This document shows, piece by piece, positions 92-5,839 of a stretch of 60,418 nt of DNA. Made by a program: the position numbers and the translations under genes. The stretch is from assembly GCA_945872355.1 (NCBI GenBank), contig CAMBZU010000008.1:1-60418 (forward strand), given 5' to 3'. The stretch's first letter is position 1. Every line of letters begins with the position of its first letter. The DNA comes from Chitinophaga pinensis (GTDB taxonomy: Bacteria > Bacteroidota > Bacteroidia > UBA4408). The notes under the pieces are model-generated. The model saw only the letters and a program-made list of their open reading frames with translations, was not told the DNA's origin and did no database searches.

Positions 92-3000
92 ATGAATCGA
101 TTTAGCAAATTTTCTCTTGTACTTCTCATTTTATGTTTGAGTAATACAATGCTCAGCGCCCAAGCTCCTTATTGTACCGCTACTTTTTTCAATCCTTGCC
201 AATCAGCTTTTACTAACGATTTTGTAAATAGCTTCTCCACCACCAATGGTACCACAAATATCACAAACAATAATTCGGGCTGCAATAATATGCCCAATAA
301 CTATATCTATTACCCCAACCAAGTTGTAACTGTAGCGCAGGGCTGTAGCTTTAATGTTTCAGTGCAATGTGGTGCAACCTACCAACAAGGATTTGGTATT
401 TGGATTGATTTTAATCATAATAATTTATTTACTGATGTTGGCGAGTTTGTATGGAATTCAGGCGCTGCAGGTTTTCAAGTTTTTACAGGTATAGTTAATG
501 TTCCTGCTTCAGCTATGTTAGGTATTACGCGTATGCGCCTCAGGTCAAATTATGCTTCACCACCTACAAGCCCATGTTTAAATCAAACTTATGGAGAAAT
601 AGAAGATTATCAAGTAAATATAGTGCAATCTGTAAATATACCACCTGTAGGGGTGAATGACACCATTTGTGCTGGACAAAATGCTAGTTTAACAGCTACA
701 GGTAACGGAATATTGCAATGGTTTACAGTGCCAGCAGGCGGAACAATAGTTCAAACAGGTGGTACACTCAATACACCAATTTTAAATAACACAACTACCT
801 ATTATGTACAATCTGTTGTTGGCGGCTGTATTAGCCCTAGAACTCCTGTTATTGCTGTAGTATCGCCAATTTTTAATATTAATATTATTGCCGCTGCAGA
901 TACTGTTTGTGCCGGTGGCACAGTAAATCTTTTAGCTTCAGGCAGTAATTTAACTTATTCTTGGACCCCAGTAGTAAATGTCAATAACAACACTGCTAAT
1001 CCGGTTACAGCAACGATTAATGCACAAACTACTTTTACTGTAGTTGCTACTAATGCAATAGGTTGCACTGCTGCTGCTTCAAAGGTAATTAACATATATC
1101 CAACACCAATACTTAATACAGTGGTAAATCCAACCGCAATTTGTGTTGGAGATACAGCTGTGATAACCGTTACAGGAGCAACAAATTGCACATGGACTGG
1201 CACTTATTTATATGCGAATGCTGCAAATGATTCTATCTGGGTTGCACCAACTGCCACTGATATTTTTACTGTTTCTGCAACTGCCTCTAATGGCTGTGTT
1301 GGAACTCAAACAGCTACTATTACTGTAAATCAATTGCCTACAGCCTATGCAGGGGCCGATGAAAGTATTTGTAATGGCGCAAATGTTACCTTAAACGCTT
1401 CTGGAGGAGCAGGCTACAGCTGGTCGCCTGTAAATGGTTTATCTGCTTCAAATATTAACAATCCTACTGTTACACTTAATAATACGCAAACTTATACATT
1501 AACTGTAACCGATGCCAATGGCTGTCAAAATACTGATGATATTACTGTCAATGTGCTTGCTTTGCCAATTGCCAATCCTGGCATTAACGCTGCTGTTTGC
1601 CCAGGGGGAAATACAACTTTAAATGGAACAGGTGGTACCACTTATACTTGGAGTCCAGCCACTGGTTTAAGCAATCCTAATATTGCAAATCCTATCTGCA
1701 CACCTGCTGCCACAACAAATTATACTTTAATTGTTACCGATGGCACCTGTACATCTTTACCTTCTGCACCAATTACTGTAACTGTTTATAATCAACCAGC
1801 TGCCCCTTTAATTAATGTGAATGGACCAATTACTTTTTGTCAAGGAAACAGTGTTACATTAACATCAACAGCAGCAAGTAATAATACATGGAACACTGGG
1901 GCTGTTGCAAATAGTATTACAGTGAACACTTCAGGGGCATATACTGTTTATTATTTAGATGCGAATGGATGTAGTTCTTCAATTTCAGCGCCAGTTAACG
2001 TACTTGTTAATCCATTGCCTTCAGTGCCTATTATTAGCGCTTCAGGCCCATTAACAGTTTGCCCGCTAGGCACGGTAGATTTAACATCAACAGCTGCCAA
2101 TCTTTATACTTGGTCCAATGGTGCCAATACACAAACAATTACTTTAACAACTTCTGGTTCATACAATGTAACAATTACTGATGTTAATGGTTGTACAGCT
2201 ACTTCTGCAAATACTTTATTTACTGTACTTGCGCCACCTCCTGCTCCAATTATTACAGCAAGTGGACCAATTTCTTTTTGTACAGGTGATAGTGTTTCAT
2301 TAACAAGTTCTACTTCATCATCCTATTTATGGAGTAATGGGGCTACCACACAAAGTATTACGGTGTTTGCTACGGGTACATTTTCTATTACTAATACCAA
2401 TGCTGCAGGCTGTGTTACACCTACTTCTGCAATAACAAACATCACAATGTTTGCAGTGCCAGCTGCACCAACAATAACTGCGAATGGTGTTACAACTTTT
2501 TGTTATGGTAATAATGTTGTATTAACAAGTTCAGCTGCTGCCGGCTATAATTGGTCAAACACTTATATCACGCAAAGTATTACTGTTACACAATCTGGTA
2601 CATTTAATTTAAGTATCATTGATGCAAATGGCTGCCCATCGCCACAATCTGCTGATGTTATTGTTATTGTGAATGCCTTACCTCAAAGCCCAATCATCAG
2701 CGCAAGCGGTCCAACAGCATTTTGTATAGGATCAAGCGTTACTTTGCAATCGAGCGAGCCAAATGGGAATAATTGGAACACAGGAAGCACTGCTTCTACA
2801 ATCAATGTAACTAACTCCGGGAATTATGCAGTTACCTATACCGATGCAAATAATTGTACTTCAGTGGCCTCTAATCCAATAATGATTACTGCAATGGCAT
2901 TAGCGCCCACACCAACCATTAGTAATAATGGTTCAACAACTTTTTGTGAAAATGACAGTGTAGTTTTAACATGTTCTCAAGCACAAACCTATCTATGGAA

Positions 3001-3871
3001 TACGGGCGAAACAACTGCAAGTATAACAGTAAATAATGCAGGAAACTATACAGTGCAAGTAACAGATATTTGTAACCCTGTAAATCCTACCGCCAACATA
3101 TTAATTACTGTAAATCCTAATCCTTTGGCAAGCTTCTTGGCTCCAATTGTGGTTGATTGTTTACCTTCGAGTATTGAATTTGTTAACAACAGTGTTGGCA
3201 TTGTTTCTAGTTTGTGGAATTTTGGTGATGGTGGTAACAGCATAGAAAACAATCCAAATTATGCTTATCAATTCCCAGGTTTATATAGTGTTAGTCTTAC
3301 TGTTTTTGATGCAAATGGCTGCAGCAATACTAAAACAATTGATGAATATATAGAAATATATCCTACAGCTGAATTGCAGTATACTATTTCACCTCAGGTA
3401 ACTGATTTATTGAATAGCAATATTGTTTTTGAAAACATTACACCTAATTGTGCCTCCCAAATATGGGATTTAGGAACCTACGGAAATAGCAGCGCAGCAT
3501 CGTATAATTATACTTTTGAAGAAGTAGGTACTTATTATGTCAATCTCTCAGTGGTTACTGAGCAAGGTTGTGTTGAGCAAATAACAGATTCTGTGATTGT
3601 TGAAGATAACTTTGTTTTGTATTTCCCAAGCTCATTCACGCCAAATGGTGATGGATTAAATGATGTATTTATGCCCTTAGGCGGAGGTATAAAAGAGTTT
3701 AGGTTGGAAATATATAATCGCTGGGGTAATTTGATTCACACTGCTACAAGTATGTCGCAAGCATGGGATGGAAAAGATCACGGACAAGATAATTACATTT
3801 GGAAAGTTTATCTAAAAGATAATGGAGGTGTTGATCGTGAAATGATTGGAAGTGTAACTTTATTGAGATAA
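92..3871 (+). CDS. Giant secreted adhesin-like protein with GEVED, Ig-like/PKD repeats and T9SS C-terminal domain
   Basis: 1259 residues. Residues 1-24 are a signal peptide ending in SAQ. A GEVED domain follows at about 90-180, with the acidic IWIDFNHNN stretch and the name-giving GEIEDY motif. From about 185 to 1040 there are roughly ten Ig-like repeats of about 80 residues sharing a pattern of FC-G-SV-LTS, W-NG, then a tyrosine/threonine strand and TDANGC. One PKD-type repeat (LWNFGDGG) lies near 1060. The last 90 residues are a gliding-motility/T9SS type B tail (FTPNGDGLNDVF, then YNRWGNLI). In this family that tail directs export across the outer membrane and surface attachment. A role in adhesion or matrix binding is inferred from architecture; the ligand is unknown. 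The 3' end faces the next operon with 10 bases between. Confidence 0.9.
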   Translation: MNRFSKFSLVLLILCLSNTMLSAQAPYCTATFFNPCQSAFTNDFVNSFSTTNGTTNITNNNSGCNNMPNNYIYYPNQVVTVAQGCSFNVSVQCGATYQQGFGIWIDFNHNNLFTDVGEFVWNSGAAGFQVFTGIVNVPASAMLGITRMRLRSNYASPPTSPCLNQTYGEIEDYQVNIVQSVNIPPVGVNDTICAGQNASLTATGNGILQWFTVPAGGTIVQTGGTLNTPILNNTTTYYVQSVVGGCISPRTPVIAVVSPIFNINIIAAADTVCAGGTVNLLASGSNLTYSWTPVVNVNNNTANPVTATINAQTTFTVVATNAIGCTAAASKVINIYPTPILNTVVNPTAICVGDTAVITVTGATNCTWTGTYLYANAANDSIWVAPTATDIFTVSATASNGCVGTQTATITVNQLPTAYAGADESICNGANVTLNASGGAGYSWSPVNGLSASNINNPTVTLNNTQTYTLTVTDANGCQNTDDITVNVLALPIANPGINAAVCPGGNTTLNGTGGTTYTWSPATGLSNPNIANPICTPAATTNYTLIVTDGTCTSLPSAPITVTVYNQPAAPLINVNGPITFCQGNSVTLTSTAASNNTWNTGAVANSITVNTSGAYTVYYLDANGCSSSISAPVNVLVNPLPSVPIISASGPLTVCPLGTVDLTSTAANLYTWSNGANTQTITLTTSGSYNVTITDVNGCTATSANTLFTVLAPPPAPIITASGPISFCTGDSVSLTSSTSSSYLWSNGATTQSITVFATGTFSITNTNAAGCVTPTSAITNITMFAVPAAPTITANGVTTFCYGNNVVLTSSAAAGYNWSNTYITQSITVTQSGTFNLSIIDANGCPSPQSADVIVIVNALPQSPIISASGPTAFCIGSSVTLQSSEPNGNNWNTGSTASTINVTNSGNYAVTYTDANNCTSVASNPIMITAMALAPTPTISNNGSTTFCENDSVVLTCSQAQTYLWNTGETTASITVNNAGNYTVQVTDICNPVNPTANILITVNPNPLASFLAPIVVDCLPSSIEFVNNSVGIVSSLWNFGDGGNSIENNPNYAYQFPGLYSVSLTVFDANGCSNTKTIDEYIEIYPTAELQYTISPQVTDLLNSNIVFENITPNCASQIWDLGTYGNSSAASYNYTFEEVGTYYVNLSVVTEQGCVEQITDSVIVEDNFVLYFPSSFTPNGDGLNDVFMPLGGGIKEFRLEIYNRWGNLIHTATSMSQAWDGKDHGQDNYIWKVYLKDNGGVDREMIGSVTLLR

Positions 3872-3881
3872 GCTTGCTAAT

Positions 3882-4709
3882 TTATTGATTGTAAAAATCA
3901 AAAAGCAATTCTGCATTTTTTTGTTTTATTTCTTCTAGCTTCTTTTCGTTATTTATCATTGCCAAATGTTTTGTGTGTCTGATACCCCCAAAGTAAAATT
4001 TTGAAAAAGGCATAATTCCGTAGGAAAAAGCATTGAAGAATAATTGCTTTTTGAAAAGAAAAATTGGTAAGGCAACAAAAATACCATTGAGTAAAAAAGA
4101 TACCATTCCCTCTTTTAGTTCACCTTCTTTAATCATTCCCGCACCTGGCAATAATGCTTGATAAAGTGATGATTTTTTTTCAGTGCTTTCAATAAAATAA
4201 TTTTGTAAGGCGCTCATAATTCTACTTGTATCAAGCTTCAAAACTTCCGATGCCTGCCTTATTTCAGTAATAATGAGTTCATATTGACTTTCCTGATTTA
4301 AGCACAAGCTCTTTATGAAAGACTTTTGAATAGTAAGCTTCCCTGCGTTATCTGCATTAATAATATCAATACATGAGTTGTAAAGTTGAGCGTCAAATAA
4401 TAAGATTTCTATAGCGTCGTAAAATGCTTTTTCTTGTAATATTTTCTGATCTAACTCTTTTATTCTGGTTATTTCCCTTAATGCTTTTGCAAAATCAATA
4501 TTTTTAAATGAAAGCAACACTTTTTGAAATAAGGCATCATATCTTTCTGCATCAGTTTGCGCTAAAAAAAATGTATACTCCAATTTAAGAAGTTCCATTT
4601 TGTAAATACTGTCATTGCTCCCTAATTTATCATTAAGGTTGCCATTGCCAGCGCATACAAATGTATTGCTAATTACGAAGCTGGTAAGTACAATAATCCA
4701 ATACTTCAT
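3882..4709 (-). CDS. Exported membrane-anchored hypothetical protein, third gene of the YidD-like operon
   Basis: 275 residues. Residues 1-20 look like a signal peptide. The middle (30-180) is helical and charged, reminiscent of a TPR-like helical domain but with no clear repeat. The C-terminal third has a PGAG motif at 188-191 and two hydrophobic segments (about 202-219 and 224-242), followed by a lysine/glutamate-rich helix. The PG-G motif plus following helix resembles the DUF5683/TM2-like small membrane modules common in Bacteroidota, and the neighbouring protein carries the same layout, so the two look like paralogues. The start overlaps the preceding gene by 41 bases, indicating translational coupling. 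Function is unknown. Confidence 0.75.
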   Translation of the reverse strand: MKYWIIVLTSFVISNTFVCAGNGNLNDKLGSNDSIYKMELLKLEYTFFLAQTDAERYDALFQKVLLSFKNIDFAKALREITRIKELDQKILQEKAFYDAIEILLFDAQLYNSCIDIINADNAGKLTIQKSFIKSLCLNQESQYELIITEIRQASEVLKLDTSRIMSALQNYFIESTEKKSSLYQALLPGAGMIKEGELKEGMVSFLLNGIFVALPIFLFKKQLFFNAFSYGIMPFSKFYFGGIRHTKHLAMINNEKKLEEIKQKNAELLFDFYNQ

Positions 4710-5457
4710 TTTTTAGTTGTGTGTTTAATTTTTTTAAAAGTAGTTTTTTTGAAATAACTGTTCCATATATATTAGCCATATAAACCGGAAGAAAAACTAA
4801 TCCAGTGATTAATGTGCTTGTGCTTACAAGTCCAATCTTAATAATACTCTCGATTAAAGGAGCCGAAGCTAATAGATTTAAAAAGATAGTTCCTGTAGCT
4901 TCTCCATTTTGCATTAAATAATACTTACCAGTGCCAGGGACAATAATTGACAATAATGTAGCAACAAATAATGATTTTTTTTGTAGTTTTTTTATTCTTT
5001 CTGAGGTGGTGTTAAACTGATTTGAATTTGTTTTTGAATTTACCTTTCCTTCAATAAAATCAATTAGCGCATTCAATTGAGCTATTTTGCTCTCAGCTAT
5101 TTTTTTTAAAGTTAATTCTTGTATAATATGACTATATATTTTATTTGAATTTAGTACCAAAGCGCCATAAAAAACGAGTATTAAATCATTGGTATCTTTT
5201 GCAAATAATGTATACTTATTTAACAGTAAAGTATCTTTGTATTTTGAAGATAGGTAAACAATATCTTTGGCTAAAGAAACAGCTGAAGGAGACGAAAAAT
5301 CAATTGTTTTGTAATAGGCCAATCGCTCTAGTTCAAAATTATCTTGCATCAAGTGCGATAAAAAATCTTCATTAATTTTTACCAATACCTGTGCATGCAT
5401 GTTTTGGTAGCTGATAGAAATTAATAGAATGAAAATGAACTTGTACATTTTATTCAT
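4669..5457 (-). CDS. Exported membrane-anchored hypothetical protein, second gene of the YidD-like operon
   Basis: 262 residues from the ATG at 5457, chosen because it places the hydrophobic signal (residues 5-22, ending in HAQ) at the N terminus. An upstream in-frame ATG at 5472 would put extra polar residues ahead of it, and 5448 is a third option. A helical soluble region (30-155) is followed by PGTGKYY at 174-180 and two or three hydrophobic segments (about 163-178, 187-207 and 210-232). This matches the layout of the following gene (PGAG plus helices), suggesting an old duplication. It overlaps the YidD-like gene by 8 bases. Both probably sit in the inner membrane with a periplasmic helical domain; the function is not known. 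Confidence 0.75.
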   Translation of the reverse strand: MNKMYKFIFILLISISYQNMHAQVLVKINEDFLSHLMQDNFELERLAYYKTIDFSSPSAVSLAKDIVYLSSKYKDTLLLNKYTLFAKDTNDLILVFYGALVLNSNKIYSHIIQELTLKKIAESKIAQLNALIDFIEGKVNSKTNSNQFNTTSERIKKLQKKSLFVATLLSIIVPGTGKYYLMQNGEATGTIFLNLLASAPLIESIIKIGLVSTSTLITGLVFLPVYMANIYGTVISKKLLLKKLNTQLKNEVLDYCTYQLRN

Positions 5458-5839
5458 AAAAGTGCAAGTCATCAATTAAAGTACTATTGCTATTCCATAT
5501 TAAAGAAGGTAAATAATTATAAGTGTTTTCTGATGTGCCACACCTGCTAAGGCGATCAATCCCGAGTAAAAAACCCTTTCCAAAGCCCAATTTTTGTTGC
5601 GCTTCATACATAAATACTGAGCAAGTATTTTTAAAGACACAGTTGGCAGAAATTTGCTTTGATATATATTTTTTATAAAAACCGTTTTGATTGTTTTTAA
5701 TAGCTTTTCCCGCTTGGTTATTTTTCTTTTGATAGCGCTCAAAAATTAAAGCAATACCATTGTTTATAGATTGTTGCGCAAACAATTGAGTTGAGAGAAA
5801 GGTATGTATTGTAAAGATAAAAATGAATAAGCGCAGCAT
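5450..5839 (-). CDS. YidD-like protein with an N-terminal signal peptide
   Basis: 129 residues from the ATG at 5839. The codon before it, TTG at 5842, is a less likely start. Residues 1-22 form a signal peptide ending in FAQ. Residues 55-112 match the YidD (membrane protein insertion efficiency factor) signature: C67, then NTCS with C73, then EA-LG--KG-LLG--RL-RC with C100. Canonical YidD proteins are about 70-85 residues, lack a cleavable signal and sit beside rnpA, oxaA/yidC or rpmH. This copy is longer, apparently exported, and heads an operon with two membrane proteins. The three cysteines are conserved. The fold assignment is good; a role in membrane protein insertion is doubtful for an exported copy. 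Confidence 0.8.
   Translation of the reverse strand: MLRLFIFIFTIHTFLSTQLFAQQSINNGIALIFERYQKKNNQAGKAIKNNQNGFYKKYISKQISANCVFKNTCSVFMYEAQQKLGFGKGFLLGIDRLSRCGTSENTYNYLPSLIWNSNSTLIDDLHFYE

Follow-up and report, generated by a model that had tools for sequence, protein, structure and literature searches.

YidD is viewed as a helper of YidC on the cytosolic side of the membrane and normally acts inside the cell in membrane-protein insertion. In Escherichia coli, it has been reported to assist YidC in the insertion of inner-membrane proteins (Yu et al. 2011, via PMC3573977), while for Bacteroidetes it has been described that most substrates of signal peptidase I expose a glutamine after cleavage, a regularity known as the Q-rule (PMC5837995). 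Our search of the open-access literature returned no paper describing an exported YidD, or joining YidD to LolA, DUF5683, or exported TM2 operons. Here, we report on an exported member of the YidD family encoded in a window of 60,418 nucleotides (the whole stretch of DNA analyzed, which is contig C8 of a 3.4-Mb genome of Bacteroidota type, 96% complete). This gene belongs to a conserved envelope module of Bacteroidota, whose usual form comprises one to three genes for small exported proteins (T), a gene with weak similarity to the LolA_like family (hereafter LolA_like-like), the exported YidD, and two further genes, B and C. The copy in the window is a derived form with three genes only and no T or LolA_like-like gene nearby, so that these upstream partners could not be recognized at first pass from the window alone.

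The three genes lie on the minus strand. A (positions 5839 to 5450, 129 amino acids from its ATG) encodes the exported YidD-family protein, B (5457 to 4669, 262 amino acids) encodes a protein with a signal peptide, a TPR-like helical region, and a C-terminal TM2-like hairpin, and C (4709 to 3882, 275 amino acids) encodes a paralogue of B. The overlap measures 8 bp between reading frames A and B and 41 bp between B and C, and the first-pass annotation had these coordinates right, as well as the tightness of the unit; its description of a YidD gene overlapped by two genes applies to B but not to C, which overlaps B. It had also proposed a good promoter. A candidate of the Bacteroidetes type, TTTG-N21-TAAGTTTG, does stand upstream of A (5900 to 5868, minus strand) and fits the consensus, but the window contains 6 such matches against 7.45 expected in shuffles, and since the pattern occurs at chance level the match is not evidence. 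The Rfam and tRNA search of the window gave no match. The relatives found by sequence are Bacteroidota. Compared with the closest relative, the window gave pS values of about 0.7 to 0.76 and pN values of 0.37 to 0.42, and since dS is near saturation, these values support constraint rather than a precise ratio. The convergent neighbor (92 to 3871) encodes an exported surface protein of 1,259 amino acids that carries Ig-like, GEVED, and PKD domains as well as a type IX secretion signal of the CHU_C kind.

The product of A scores above the curated cutoffs of both YidD profiles, PF01809 (E value of 9e-13; 48.3 bits against a cutoff of 27) and TIGR00278 (48.9 bits against 40), and is thus a member of the YidD family. 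Its YidD core spans residues 54 to 102 and includes C67, C73, and C100, the cysteines correctly named at first pass. The signal peptide, MLRLFIFIFTIHTFLSTQLFA followed by Q, ends in the A-Q cleavage site of Bacteroidota, and Q22, directly after it, is invariant across 63 aligned exported YidD proteins, in keeping with the Q-rule, and so are the three cysteines; a glutamine is nearly invariant at the equivalent place in the alignment of the B family. The aligned glutamine and the hydrophobic N terminus, on which the export call is based, make export well supported by sequence, in agreement with the initial proposal. A regular expression for the AQ junction was considered as an export control and found unusable, since canonical YidD proteins contain CSQ. 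The AlphaFold model of A has a mean pLDDT of 78; a fold search with the YidD model found no solved match (best Foldseek E value above 5; VIA Z scores of at most 3.6 among 11 chains), and neither did a PDB sequence search with the exported YidD.

The genome of the window harbors three YidD genes, namely, a canonical one (79 amino acids, contig C1), the window copy, and a second exported copy (150 amino acids, contig C59). The first-pass annotation had stated that YidD normally lies beside yidC and rnpA; the canonical gene of this genome departs from that pattern and is adjoined by genes for a large surface protein and a kinase-like protein, the latter followed by a gene resembling a tRNA ligase. 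When we inspected 60 genomes (that of the window and 59 relatives), YidD was present in all of them, and nearly all had a canonical copy scoring 92 to 110 bits; about two dozen further YidD matches (30 to 66 bits, mostly in frames of 128 to 188 amino acids) were distributed over 22 genomes, including that of the window. In a YidD tree, which is unrooted and built on a short domain, 59 exported proteins are set apart from 30 canonical ones by a single branch with a support of 100/99; the tree includes one sequence with an absurdly long branch, L139, which is probably a wrongly picked frame. Exported and canonical proteins have in common the same domain above both curated cutoffs, the three cysteines, and the KG and R-L-x-R-C blocks. 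However, the exported ones differ in having a signal peptide, in forming a separate clade, and in residing in an operon with B and C, and they feature SxQ and DRLxRC where the canonical proteins feature SP and (K/R)RxxRC. Protein A, with its signal peptide and its length of 129 amino acids, groups outside the canonical proteins, and its export and separate clade rule out annotation as a plain YidD equivalog. In the exported proteins of loci L142 to L152, belonging to the f57/f75 lineage, C67 and C73 are retained, whereas the third cysteine is gone (DRFTRD instead of DRLTRC), which indicates that this residue is not essential.

No match was found for B or C of the window in the Pfam/NCBIfam profile search. 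Plain BLASTP between the two is marginal (E value of 0.003), whereas profile-profile comparison of the two families by hhalign aligned 274 columns with a probability of 99.7% and an E value of 4e-26; B and C are, therefore, full-length paralogues, as had been proposed in the initial inspection, a relationship visible over the whole length to profile comparison only. The hairpin blocks are VPGTGKYY and FLPVYMANIYGT in B and LLPGAGMIKEG and KFYFGGIRHTKHL in C, and the PG(T/A)G motif noticed in the initial inspection falls within the most conserved part of both family alignments. The AlphaFold model of B (mean pLDDT of 85) displays a TPR-like region with helices between residues 30 and 135 and two long hairpin helices at 184 to 208 and 213 to 261. 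Window B is too divergent for a TPR profile match; nevertheless, 9 of 23 members of its family match TPR_19 (best E value of 1.3e-8), so that the family as a whole can be assigned a TPR. As for the hairpin, B and C resemble TM2 (PF05154) and DUF5683 (PF18935) in their PGxGxxYxG-type sequence, and the T proteins of one operon type, T2, do match TM2 (up to 9e-13). In contrast, B stays below threshold: the window protein gave no match to TM2, the best family members reached 0.0022 with TM2 and 0.0007 with DUF5683, and the B homologue on contig C59 scored 14.3 bits against a TM2 cutoff of 27.9. Both B and C further differ from TM2 and DUF5683 proteins by the additional exported TPR-like domain. 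Searches for structural relatives returned generic TPR proteins only (PDB sequence search with B) and generic helical-repeat matches (fold search with the B model; top Z score of about 8) that are uninformative on function. In a joint tree, the B and C proteins fall into two broad groups, which we refer to as type I and type II, and a long-branched set without the LolA_like-like gene includes the window copy and L054, L055, L056, and L052. The C homologues at L121:3604-5418 and L122:8379-9602 are extended to frames of 604 and 407 amino acids, respectively.

The exported YidD gene on contig C59 has overlapping homologues of B and C downstream (302 and 298 amino acids; BLASTP E value of 5e-16 between the two B proteins) and a gene for an exported LolA_like-like protein upstream, so that the same genome carries a sister operon. 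Across the 60 genomes, B and C follow almost all exported YidD genes. One exception, the exported YidD gene at L042:4839-8231 (G045), has neither B nor C beside it; the frame that comes next encodes 975 amino acids and contains TPR. The other, L057 (G004:C2, 3716 to 7375), appears to hold the decayed remains of two neighboring operons, with a broken YidD and B on the minus strand, a truncated B with an intact C on the plus strand, and two T2 genes alongside. At about 30 canonical YidD loci, mostly inspected over 1.5 kb on each side, B, C, and the LolA_like-like gene were absent from all. In a whole-genome search with a B profile, which was built from these same loci and could miss very distant B proteins elsewhere, strong matches (1e-51 or better) were confined to carriers of an exported YidD (21 of 22 genomes, against 0 of the 38 without one; Fisher's exact test, 2.8e-15); the next matches outside the operons, at only about 1e-10, are in long generic TPR frames. 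This survey rules out both a chance adjacency and an oddity of the window. At L062, L066, L117, L121, and L122, a type I operon directly neighbors a type II operon of the same genome, in divergent or convergent orientation. Among other Bacteroidota lineages, f57 has YidD, B, and C without a LolA_like-like gene and f65 has the full set; the YidD-B-C core can exist alone, since both the window copy and the f57 lineage are without LolA_like-like and T genes.

The co-occurrence of the neighbors with signal-bearing YidD proteins, which the first-pass annotation had put forward as a check, was confirmed in held-out genomes as well. Scanning 84,980 species genomes with exported-YidD motifs yielded 80 loci, the first 73 of which are exported YidD genes, all in Bacteroidota records except L126, while the tail consists of canonical YidD genes, mostly from other phyla. 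L126 (JAACEJ010000061.1) is a YidD-B-C locus in a metagenome bin labeled Actinomycetota, probably a misbinned Bacteroidota contig. With profiles trained on the first set only and seven duplicates taken out, B follows the exported YidD gene at 63 of 64 testable loci (the sole miss, L086, being a start-codon artifact), C follows at 60 of 61, and the LolA_like-like gene is upstream at 61 of 66. The frames mostly overlap, with median gaps of -1 bp between YidD and B, -36 bp between B and C, and -59 bp between the LolA_like-like gene and YidD. Cultured carriers include Emticicia, Lacihabitans, Jiulongibacter, and Rhabdobacter, whereas the Runella, Spirosoma, and Leadbetterella carriers are metagenome bins; since the motif scan favors type I sequences, this taxonomic range applies to type I.

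The T proteins differ between the two operon types. T1, identified by profile-free clustering of flanking reading frames, is a small exported protein present in 60 loci, with a signal peptide, an acidic region, and a hydrophobic hairpin around PLGIPxFxWGxCLG...TKKALxGC. It is encoded in one to three copies directly upstream of the LolA_like-like gene in 54 of 57 testable operons and, at better than 1e-10, was detected in each of the 9 carriers of type I operons among the 60 genomes, against 0 of the remaining 51. T2 is the exported TM2-domain protein of type II operons (10 of 13 members match TM2, with a best E value of 9e-13), and close matches to it occur in 8 of 8 type II genomes and in 0 of 52 others. 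Since T1 and T2 are families defined by their source loci, these counts speak for association rather than for function. Some genomes with a type I operon have further T1-family genes in tandem at a great distance from it, two copies at L178:4129-5035 and three at L179:3378-4744. The LolA_like-like gene of the usual operon encodes a protein with a signal peptide, which it shares with LolA and LolB carriers, along with a weak similarity to PF17131 LolA_like detected in 9 of 17 members (best E value of 9e-5) and in 13 of 34 members (best, 3e-5); the first member scanned was below the curated cutoff. It bears no detectable relation to the canonical LolA_2 of these genomes (10% by hhalign) and is absent beside the window copy. 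The PDB sequence search with the LolA_like-like family gave no match.

The arrangement of a natural fusion bears on how the products might interact. At L141:4099-5301 (G163), YidD and B are joined in a single protein of 400 amino acids, with the Pfam YidD domain at residues 35 to 87 followed by the B region, and a homologue of 399 amino acids from another genus (G222:C16:96907-98085) is 41% identical to it. The order in the fusion is signal peptide, YidD, TPR-like region, and hairpin, from which it follows that YidD and the TPR-like region should share one side of the membrane, and the fusion argues for a contact between YidD and B. At L141, C does not adjoin the fusion gene.

Taken as a whole, the module is best read as a periplasm-facing machine for the assembly or insertion of small exported hairpin proteins, a reading to which we give slightly less than even confidence and which keeps the envelope assembly or insertion system suggested at first pass as the preferred interpretation. 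After export and cleavage by signal peptidase I, the YidD domain would dock on the TPR-like domains of B and C at the periplasmic side of a membrane, and B and C in turn would be anchored by their TM2-like hairpins. The complex would bind the hydrophobic hairpins of small exported proteins, namely, the neighboring T proteins, and place them in the envelope, so that YidD would exert its known insertion-assisting role from the outer side of the inner membrane. The LolA_like-like protein may serve as a periplasmic carrier of the T proteins, which is the weakest link of the proposal. The window copy may draw on the T and LolA_like-like proteins encoded by its sister operon on contig C59, or its client may have changed. 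With more reserve, we suggest that the combination of an exported YidD, two TPR/TM2-like paralogues, and a periplasmic carrier could constitute a wholly new, periplasm-facing envelope machine dedicated to small exported proteins with helical hairpins, which might install alpha-helical proteins outside the inner membrane.

Instead of being clients, the T proteins could be subunits. T, B, and C, all of which have TM2-like or similar two-helix hairpins, would then co-assemble into one envelope complex, for example a channel or a surface organelle, in which the exported YidD has a structural or capping role, as might be expected from the TM2-like hairpins common to B, C, and T2, from the one to three T copies adjoining the operon, and from the YidD-B fusion. 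However, tandem T1 sets located away from the operon and the widely varying number of T genes fit clients better, and several lineages have YidD, B, and C without a recognizable T, so that we regard such a complex as unlikely. The T proteins, being small, exported, hairpin forming, and tandemly duplicated, also call to mind secreted pore-forming or bacteriocin-like peptides, for which YidD-B-C and the LolA_like-like protein would provide export or self-protection; yet no module-specific immunity-like or export-ATPase genes recur nearby across lineages, and T1 is conserved around its WG and GC motifs across families, which leaves this role very improbable.

Lipid or lipoprotein trafficking to the outer membrane or the surface, with the LolA_like-like protein as the carrier, YidD-B-C as a release or acceptor platform at the inner membrane, and T as a regulator, would be in line with the export of the upstream gene product and its weak PF17131 similarity, and it is rendered rather improbable by the subthreshold score of the first member, by the missing relation to LolA_2, and by the fact that neither the window copy nor the f57 lineage has the gene in its operon. 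The first-pass annotation had further hinted at outer-membrane or type IX secretion system (T9SS) proteins, and an accessory role of this kind could be seen in the envelope location and in the type IX signal of the convergent gene at 92 to 3871. T9SS presence does not discriminate, however, because GldL is found in 57 of the 60 genomes and the operon in about 22, with no specific association, and the neighbors outside the module differ between lineages; we consider this role scarcely credible.

Periplasm-facing assembly or insertion of small hairpin proteins is thus the reading we retain, and the module looks like an undescribed cell-envelope machine. A signal-bearing YidD clade whose operon partners stay constant in several Bacteroidota lineages implies either that the YidD fold works from the opposite side of the membrane or that the job assumed for YidD is wrong. 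The T proteins are concrete candidate clients, and through them the handling of secreted hydrophobic-hairpin proteins after Sec becomes testable.
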